Origin: Cerasicoccus frondis
Lineage (GTDB): Bacteria; Verrucomicrobiota; Verrucomicrobiia; Opitutales; Cerasicoccaceae
DNA length: 64,000 nucleotides
NCBI GenBank assembly: GCA_031296915.1
Contig: JAVDPC010000023.1
Span: 42,405-106,404 of the forward strand
Reading direction: 5' to 3'
This document shows positions 38,125-39,912 of this stretch, one piece after another. Positions within the stretch are counted from its first letter, which is position 1. Every line of letters begins with the position of its first letter. Position numbers and translations under genes: made by a program. The notes beneath the pieces are model-generated. The model was not told the DNA's origin. It was given only the letters and a program-made list of their open reading frames with translations, and did no database searches.

Positions 38125-39912
38125 ATGTTCAATGACATTCACAGAAGCGAAAAATCGGATCGATTCCCGGACGGCTTTACCTGGGGGACCAGCACTGCTG
38201 CCTATCAGATCGAAGGCGCCTGGAACGAAGACGGCAAAGGCCTATCTGTCTGGGATATGTTTACCAGGCAAAAGGGCCGCATTTGGCGAGACAGTGATGG
38301 CAAGGTGGCCAGCGATCACTACCACCGCTTCAAGGAAGACGTCGCCCTCATGGCCCAAATCGGCATCAAGGCGTACCGCTTCTCATTCAGTTGGCCACGC
38401 ATCCTGCCCAACGGCACTGGTAAGACCAACGAAAAAGGCATCGCGTTTTATGACCAGTTAATCAACGAGCTACTCGCCAATGGCATCGAGCCATGGCCGA
38501 CCATTTTCCATTGGGATCTGCCATACGATTTGTTCTTACGCGGCGGCTGGCTAAACCGCAAATCGTCCGACTGGTTCGCGAACTACACGAAGGTTCTGGT
38601 TGATCGCTACTCGGACCGCGTGAAGCACTGGATAACCATCAACGAACCGCAATGCTTCATCCAGCTCGGGCATAAAACCGGGGCCCACGCACCGGGCCTT
38701 AAGCTCGGCAACACCGAGATCCTGCTGGCGTCGCACCATCTGCTGTTGGCCCATGGTCGCGCAGTCTCCGTGATTCGTGAACATACCAAGAGCAAGCATC
38801 CGGTCGTTGGCTGGGCACCCGCTTGCGCCACCTACTGCCCTGCCAGTCAATCGGTGGAAGATTTGACTGCGGCACGCCAGGCGTTCAACGGCATTTTCCC
38901 CGACGGCGTTTGGAACAATCGCTGGTGGGGCGACCCCGTTGTCTTTGGCCACTACCCCGAGGAAGGGCTAAAAGTTTTTGGTGATGCCGCGCCTAAAGCC
39001 ACCGCGAGCGATTTCGACATCATCAGCCAGCCAATCGATTTTTACGGCTGTAATATTTCGCACGGCACACTGGTCCGCGCCTCGGCAATGGGTGGCCCGG
39101 AGAAAGTCGAATCCACCAACAGCACAAATCTCAATCTCTACGGCTGGCCCCAAATCCCCGAGTGCCTTTACTGGGGGCCGAAATACATCTCTGATTTATA
39201 TTCACTACCCGTCGTGATCACCGAGAACGGTTTTACCGACATCGACCAGGTTCACTTCGATGGTTCGGTGCACGATCATAACCGTATAAATTACCTGATC
39301 AAGCACCTGCTTTCTTTGCGACGGGCCATCAGTGAGGGCATTGATATTCGCGGCTACTTTCACTGGTCGTATTGCGATAATTTCGAGTGGCAAGAAGGCT
39401 TTCGCCAACGCTTTGGCTTGGTCCACATCGACTACGATACGCAGAAGCGCACGCTCAAGGACTCCGCTTTCTTTTACAAAGGCATCGTCGAGTCCAACGG
39501 CGAAAGCCTCCGCATGTATGCCAAGGACAGCGAGGACAACGTGCCCTACATCGTCAAGGAGGCGGTAAACTACATCGAGCGCAACATCTCGGAGCCGTTT
39601 AACATCAAAACCCTGGCCAATAAGCTCCGGTGCCATCCGGACTTCCTGAGCCGCCGCTTCAAGCAGTGCTATGAAGTCAGCCTCAAGGACTACATACGCC
39701 ACACACGGGTGGAGTTTTCGCGCAATCTTCTGCGGACTACCAACATCATCATTGATGACGTCGCGGAACGCTCCGGCTTCTCTGATCGCATTCGCTACAG
39801 CAAAGTTTTTCGCGAACTCACCGGCATGACGCCTGGCCAATACCGCAAGCAGTATCGGGAATCCGGCGGGGCCTCCACCAGCACCCCCTTGGGCAACGAC
39901 ACGCCCCGCTAG
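38125..39912 (+). CDS. GH1 beta-glucosidase fused to AraC-type DNA-binding domain
   Basis: A 595-residue single reading frame. Residues 1-455 are a full GH1 enzyme ([20 protein letters not shown]; acid/base E174 in TINEPQC; nucleophile E367 in ITENGF). After a short linker, residues 473-578 are a two-helix-turn-helix AraC/XylS domain: [20 protein letters not shown], then [20 protein letters not shown] and [11 protein letters not shown]. No signal peptide. Both catalytic residues are intact, so it is probably active. Inference: the GH1 part serves as sugar-sensing and/or catalytic module for a regulator of the surrounding locus. It is unlike the normal AraC arrangement, with a cupin or periplasmic-type sensor. 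The paralogue at 33450 lacks the DNA-binding domain. Confidence 0.9.

Follow-up and report, generated by a model that had tools for sequence, protein, structure and literature searches.

What does a beta-glucosidase do once it has been joined to the DNA-binding part of a transcription factor? The question arises from a 595-codon open reading frame at 38125..39912 (plus strand) of a 64,000-nucleotide stretch of Cerasicoccus frondis DNA (the window), which is open throughout and encodes a GH1 domain followed by an AraC-type double helix-turn-helix (HTH). An earlier note, made from the sequence alone, had described an uninterrupted frame with a GH1 enzyme and a complete AraC double HTH, and the open reading frame and Pfam confirmed this. 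Glyco_hydro_1 (PF00232) matched residues 11 to 459 (38155..39501, plus strand; E = 6.9e-145) and HTH_18 matched residues 497 to 576 (E = 3.4e-17; 63 bits against a cut-off of 33.6 bits), with HTH_AraC matching in two stretches. Both HTH domains of AraC/XylS regulators are present, at about residues 475 to 580 (39547..39864, plus strand) according to Pfam, the structural model (helices at 475 to 581) and the fusion alignment, and their signature CHPD was invariant in 28 of 28 fusions. The AlphaFold model, built with a 45-row alignment, had a mean pLDDT of 91.8 and a pTM of 0.80, with low values only at residues 1 to 8 and 582 to 595, and in Foldseek it fitted GH1 beta-glucosidases (Ks5A7; TMt of 0.97, 1.1 Å). 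Pfam returned GH1 and HTH families only; the RsgI N-terminal domain was not found, and the PocR sensory domain PF10114 was absent at an E value of 0.01. AraC/XylS regulators carry an N-terminal effector-binding domain, and it is this sensor position that GH1 occupies in the window fusion, judging from Pfam and from comparison with PocR-AraC relatives. We regard the product as a putative GH1-AraC fusion regulator of 595 aa.

The fusion is not an artefact of assembly, read-through or chance, since the C. frondis genome carries four (three further full-length fusions lie on other contigs, at 58, 57 and 55% identity) and other genomes hold more. The same genome also has three GH1-only genes. Another species of the genus has an 85% identical fusion (locus L058). 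Searching genomes for GH1 plus HTH_AraC architectures, the check suggested by the earlier note, returned at least 28 fusions in 18 genomes, all within the class of the window and spread over several families and beyond the order. The search covered 372 genomes of the order, 384 of the class and 387 of the phylum (overlapping samples) plus 10 of the family, and with up to three candidates scored per genome its counts are lower bounds. On the phylum and class samples we also used a profile that spans the end of GH1, the linker and the HTH, with up to nine candidates scored per genome. The fusions scored 246 to 275 bits over nearly the whole profile; among the matches listed, six unfused proteins reached 149 to 169 bits over profile positions 39 to 154 only, and all the rest were at or below 112 bits. 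The six genomes with these unfused HTHs (G609, G512, G535, G612, G546 and G050) all carry fusions. Among the 387 genomes of the phylum sample (up to nine candidates per genome), this profile detected no fusion in any genome of another class. At least seven named fusions (L082 to L088) lie in genome contigs, all under Verrucomicrobiota names, among them Verrucomicrobia LW23, Spartobacteria LR76 (two), Rariglobus sp., a Candidatus Methylacidiphilaceae genome and two others.

On the evidence of phylogeny, all fusions stem from one fusion event. Among 134 GH1 domains placed in a tree, the fused 28 formed one clade (SH-aLRT of 99). The larger clade around it (97) also took in three other unfused genes and 16 of the 17 GH1-only neighbours of fusions; the partner gene of L081 was the one left outside. 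A more careful tree, of 65 of the 134 rows and with six active-site columns removed, supported the fused clade at 100/99, the joint clade at 100/99 and the partner side at 86/55, and parsimony on it placed a single change from unfused to fused. As the monophyly of the partner clade is weak, the fused clade might nest inside it. On the HTH side, the nearest unfused relatives among three whose domains were tested (L089, L090 and L081) were PocR-AraC regulators (PF10114 plus HTH_18), 46 to 51% identical to the linker and HTH of the window fusion, whereas the best HTH outside the fusions in the C. frondis genome was 33% identical. These regulators share with the fusions the linker, the double HTH and, at their loci, the operator motif described below, and they differ in the sensor, which in the window fusion is a whole 450-aa GH1 domain and not a PocR or cupin domain. 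Because the nearest tested unfused HTHs carry PocR, GH1 sits where the sensor domain of the regulator was, which supports the earlier idea of a regulator with GH1 in place of its sensor. In this history, the gene of an ancestral cytoplasmic GH1 beta-glucosidase would have been duplicated, and a single fusion would have placed one copy before the linker and double HTH of an AraC regulator of the PocR type, displacing PocR; the pocket would then have lost catalytic power (the orienting tyrosine and, in some lineages, the glutamate dyad) while keeping its glycone-binding residues.

The earlier note had called the GH1 domain catalytic. Both glutamates that it named are in place: by column comparison, E174 in TINEP (codon 38644..38646) and E367 in ITENG (codon 39223..39225; both plus strand) align with the acid/base and the nucleophile of PDB 8j3m, and these are the positions altered in the 8j3m mutants that bear the titles E163Q (8j5l) and E350G (8j5m). 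The third residue of an active GH1, the tyrosine that orients the nucleophile (role as given in the accessible parts of PMC4729467 and PMC9113129), is replaced by S312 in the window fusion (codon tcg, 39058..39060, plus strand; column comparison), a change that the earlier note had passed over. Position 312 is assigned to this tyrosine from the N-x-Tyr motif that alignments with 8j3m and others show, and from invariance: tyrosine stood there in 106 of 106 unfused GH1s, against phenylalanine in 25, serine in 2 and tyrosine in 1 of the 28 fusions (Fisher P = 2e-27 for the loss, a value that ignores relatedness). The serines belong to the window fusion and to its counterpart in the sister species (L058). 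The sole tyrosine is that of L075 (4474-6252), a fusion that is basal in the fused clade (support of 82), carries N310S and N368S, and is a possible intermediate of the change from enzyme to sensor. The glutamates were altered in some fusions too, E174 to aspartate in 6 of 28 and E367 in 2 of 28 (glutamine in L068, lysine in L080), with 0 of 106 unfused GH1s changed at either residue; N173 had become serine in five fusions. The dyad was broken in 7 of 28 fusions, at least three times by parsimony, and in none of the 106 unfused GH1s, and it was retained in 21 fusions including that of the window. On the 65-row tree, position 312 changed three times and positions 174 and 367 twice each. The term catalytic is probably wrong, given the absence of the orienting tyrosine from the window fusion and most others and the broken dyads. 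The cost of losing that tyrosine can be large: Y295A of BglB, like mutants of both glutamates, lowers kcat/KM more than 85,000-fold according to the portion of PMC4729467 available to us, and Y295F of TmBglA lowers kcat 85-fold according to an excerpt of PMC9113129.

The rest of the domain has been kept more strictly. Unfused GH1s have 77 columns with a conservation of at least 95%, and in 52 of these the fusions show no variation at all. Changes were most frequent at 312 (27 fusions), 23 (23), 114 and 430 (7 each), 174 and 439 (6 each) and 173 (5), so the changes reach beyond the catalytic columns. H129, W130 and W422, invariant in 28 of 28 fusions, and E421 and W414, kept in 27 of 28, are presumably the sugar-binding residues of the glycone pocket. 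Q28, also invariant in 28 of 28, is equivalent to a pocket glutamine with a sugar-binding role (PMC4729467, accessible part). By its spacing from E421/W422, F430 would equal F414 of TmBglA, whose change to serine lowers kcat 70-fold (PMC9113129, likewise in part).

In five close fusion pairs, whole-gene dN/dS was 0.046, 0.022, 0.074, 0.056 and 0.082 (dS of 0.35 to 2.3, the larger values being rough), with 0.015 to 0.07 for the GH1 part and 0.05 to 0.11 for the HTH. The window GH1 domain gave 0.045 against the sister species at a dS of 2.3, near saturation, and three GH1-only comparators gave 0.05, 0.05 and 0.20, and in a fourth dS was saturated. Pseudogene decay of the GH1 half is ruled out by the range of 0.015 to 0.07. 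Pocket retention, low dN/dS and lost catalytic residues together suggest that the fused GH1 is maintained for a glycone-holding shape and relaxed as a catalyst. We therefore propose from Pfam, Foldseek and dN/dS that the domain is a sugar sensor derived from a beta-glucosidase, probably an enzyme converted into a ligand-binding module.

The first reading had been a trigger enzyme, that is, a working beta-glucosidase that also regulates and that, by turning over the inducer, determines how long the signal lasts. We consider this unlikely. Because the window fusion keeps both glutamates, as do most of its relatives, some activity may remain, and the protein passes the cut-off of the GH1 beta-glucosidase family TIGR03356 with 512.1 against 478.5 bits (among the best 25 of 37 NCBIfam families matched). 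The Y295F enzyme of TmBglA, likewise, is slowed and not dead (PMC9113129). The orienting tyrosine, however, is gone from 27 of 28 fusions, the dyad was lost repeatedly while the HTH was kept, and an intact sibling GH1 lies nearby in 17 of 28 loci. Compared with GH1 beta-glucosidases such as Thermotoga maritima BglA and Paenibacillus polymyxa BglB, the fusions share the fold, the dyad in most cases and the glycone-pocket residues, and differ by the replaced tyrosine and the C-terminal AraC HTH.

The sibling in the window (33450..34862, minus strand; Pfam, alignment and trees) is a GH1 gene without HTH, as the earlier note had seen, with 55.9% identity. With its tyrosine and both glutamates intact and its place in the clade nearest the fused GH1s, it fits the role of catalytic partner, in line with the split of catalysis and sensing that the earlier note had suggested. 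Directly after it on the same strand come genes for a 1251-aa protein (29655..33410), whose likeness to GspK and Verru_Chthon_A in profile matches is weak and below cut-off, and for its 243-aa companion (28948..29679), and because of this order both may share the partner promoter. On the plus strand, the fusion gene is flanked by a GH16 plus CBM96 protein (35286..37946; Pfam; the frame was listed from GTG 35073, and ATG 35286 is the likely start) and by a second GH16 protein (40010..42019; Pfam), whose top-scoring PDB sequences are endo-1,3-beta-glucanases and laminarinases. By eye, both GH16 proteins begin like signal peptides, and the fusion and its partner do not. A PEP-CTERM-bearing protein (42199..43665, plus strand; Pfam) is a candidate member of the regulon. 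Downstream of the glucan locus, a 4,104-aa open reading frame (46287-58601, minus strand) has RHS/YD-like repeats by eye.

Within about 8 kb on each side of the 28 fusions, where contigs allow, 22 loci had GH16 genes. A GH1-only gene and a 1,250-aa gene were present at 17 loci each, and the 240-aa companion of the latter at 12. The loci with no GH16 were L069, L074, L075, L076, L079 and L081; contig ends truncate three of them (L069, L075 and L081). GH16 was the commonest neighbour family in the Pfam survey, with 29 of 140 proteins (16 of 59 plus 13 of 81; two of the 142 neighbours, of at least 1,400 aa, were left out). Ten fusions stand head-to-head with the GH1-only gene, 207 to 578 bp apart. 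Across the whole C. frondis genome the GH16 profile matched 14 times, with some matches being fragments of a single gene.

AraC/XylS regulators bind direct-repeat operators whose half-sites lie about two helical turns apart. A Gibbs search of the ten adjacent divergent intergenic regions between GH1-only and fusion genes found a site in 10 of 10, with 29.7 bits against 17.5 to 18.3 in eight shuffled sets (the real set was given 25 restarts, each shuffled one 6). This candidate operator spans 36 bp, in which the half-site (A/T)GTC-N5-CYGAY occurs twice in the same orientation at a distance of 22 bp. When each lineage was left out in turn, the site was still the best of its region in 10 of 10, at only 6.8 to 10.6 in L073 and in the group L077/L078/L080. 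A matrix refined on 72 distinct sites, fitted on fusion loci, had an autocorrelation peak only at 22 bp (12.46, against at most 5.53 at other lags from 16 to 27). At a score of at least 14, it found 74 sites in the 28 fusion loci (1.0 Mb, both strands) and 1 in shuffled loci; 27 loci had a site, L074 being the one with none. Nearly all of our 66 control loci (L093 to L160 minus L095 and L096) are fusion-free GH1 loci, and they held 4 sites in 1.37 Mb. Although 81% of the DNA is coding, 66 of the 74 sites lie outside coding DNA.

With the refined matrix, a site lay within 450 bp before 16 of 17 GH1-only genes, 18 of 28 fusion genes, 14 of 28 GH16 genes and 28 of 146 other genes, and before none of the 11 companions; 10 of the 28 fusion genes had none. 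The 1,250-aa gene, which recurs beside fusions together with its companion, was preceded by the motif in 8 of 17 cases. In L056, L066 and L071 the fusion follows the 1,250-aa gene on one strand with a site before the latter, which would give feedback via the operon. The first matrix, made from the ten regions only, scored seven GH1-only genes outside its training loci at 10.8 to 27.6; of the 18 fusion genes not used in training, 8 reached 10 and 10 fell below, and the background of 219 other frames, which includes GH16 and overlapping frames, had a median of 0.2, with 42 reaching 10 and 27 reaching 16. In the C. frondis genome, 13 control stretches (519 kb, both strands counted) gave no site of at least 14 and five at 10 to 12.5. 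Strong sites (21.6 and 22.1) preceded the GH16 gene in two of five fusion-free GH16 loci, and no site was found in the other three or in both GH1-only loci. Because the best non-fusion HTH of this genome is so distant, its operator-like sites point to the fusions. The PocR-AraC loci L089, L090 and L081 carry the motif as well, which suggests that it follows the type of HTH and not GH1. From the association of the motif with the fusion loci we infer that the fusion HTH recognises the direct repeat, a link to be read with the three PocR-AraC loci in mind, as these might share sites. In L081, a PocR-AraC regulator (3064-4080) and a fusion (7998-9749) occupy one locus with the motif; with both regulator types present, cross-talk or a hand-over of the regulon is possible.

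In the window itself, the earlier note had named three upstream regions for binding experiments. One of them, 34860-35285, does contain operator-like sites. The stronger, at 35141..35176 (minus strand) in the divergent promoter region between the partner GH1 and GH16 genes, scored 19.0 with a matrix untrained on it and 24.7 with the refined one, and the sister species has a site in the corresponding intergenic region too (L058:4955), outside the block aligned by blastn. The other, at 34932..34967 (plus strand), lies 70 bp upstream of the partner gene, scored 11.7 and falls in the blastn block aligned to L058:4749 (17.8). The region 37947-38124 had none, the best score in the 500 bp upstream of the fusion gene being -0.6, and no match among those listed lay in 39913-40009. 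The window fusion may be transcribed from the GH16 promoter. Beyond the three regions, further operator-like sites at 42076-42153 precede the 42199 gene, one weak (42076..42111, plus strand; 9.3) and one at 42118..42153 (minus strand; 10.9) that matches by position L058:12035 (22.9), which precedes a similarly placed gene of the sister species. All window sites other than 35141 are weak (9.3 to 11.7). Matches at 57445 (18.3) and 40609 lie inside coding DNA and were treated as chance. The sites at 35141-35176 and 42118-42153 read GTACGCAT, the family consensus being TGTCATTT, and the second HTH of the window fusion reads RIRYSKVF against the family consensus RIHFxKVF. Co-variation of HTH and operator in the window is possible.

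Two related alternatives give the altered pocket a covalent role. In one, which strikes us as doubtful, the crippled GH1 pocket would slowly release a covalent inducer intermediate and so report flux through the bond that its sibling cleaves, the pair having come from duplication of one gene. The other, quite improbable in our view, takes a slow-release glycosyl-enzyme intermediate on E367 as the signal itself, for which BlaR1-type penicillin sensors offer a precedent. The nucleophile is indeed kept in 26 of 28 fusions while the tyrosine or the acid/base is mostly altered, but L068 and L080 keep both HTH and operator with glutamine or lysine in its place. That the protein is instead a glucosidase with a vestigial HTH, or one tethered to DNA in no regulatory role while the operator serves another regulator, is very improbable: the motif does stand at three PocR-AraC loci with similar HTHs, but the fusion HTH is under purifying selection in all five pairs with its CHPD unchanged, the fusion has a single origin and has lasted in several families and outside the order, and the sites occur in C. 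frondis even though its best other HTH is only 33% identical.

We favor the reading of the window fusion as a cytoplasmic, one-component transcription regulator that senses beta-gluco-oligosaccharides, and put its probability at roughly 0.77. The secreted GH16 enzymes would cut a laminarin-like glucan, and the resulting oligosaccharides would enter the cell and occupy the GH1 pocket without quick hydrolysis. Occupancy would alter the seating of the HTH on the 36-bp direct repeat and thereby switch the partner GH1, GH16 and neighbouring genes. We infer the identity of the ligand, its binding and the direction of control; activation is a guess.

By its HTH, the fusion belongs with the AraC/XylS regulators, and by analogy it would work like other enzyme-derived sensors. 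One parallel comes from plants, in the beta-amylase family (GH14), where we know of no ligand for BZR1-BAM7/BAM8. Like the fusions, these proteins unite by gene fusion a catalytically inactive glycoside hydrolase, here a beta-amylase, with a DNA-binding domain (PMC6394054, in the part available); unlike them, they are eukaryotic and use another DNA-binding domain. The anti-sigma factor RsgI6 of Clostridium thermocellum has a GH10 sensor that binds polysaccharide and hardly hydrolyses it (PMC4711584, from the accessible text). It too employs a glycoside hydrolase domain of very low activity as a sensor for genes of its own substrate, but it is extracellular and membrane-spanning, acts via a sigma factor and has GH10 with no DNA-binding domain. 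The earlier note knew of no described regulator of this form. This stands for the open-access literature, in which we found no GH1-AraC or other glycosidase-AraC fusion (most subscription papers fell outside this scope); the principle, in contrast, has precedents in RsgI6 and BZR1-BAM7/8. No paper on Cerasicoccus and laminarin was found in the open-access literature.

In the fusion clade, nature has recorded how a metabolic enzyme turned into a transcription-factor sensor; the enzyme sibling survives, and a basal member, L075, still keeps the tyrosine. Such a family is easily hidden, because the window fusion passes the NCBI cut-off for a GH1 beta-glucosidase. Its GH1 domain is a possible GH1-based biosensor module. 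Verrucomicrobiota are important degraders of algal glycans, and they gain here a candidate glucan regulator and a candidate operator. The family probably lets a cell regulate its own genes for laminarin digestion according to the sugar bound in the GH1 pocket.
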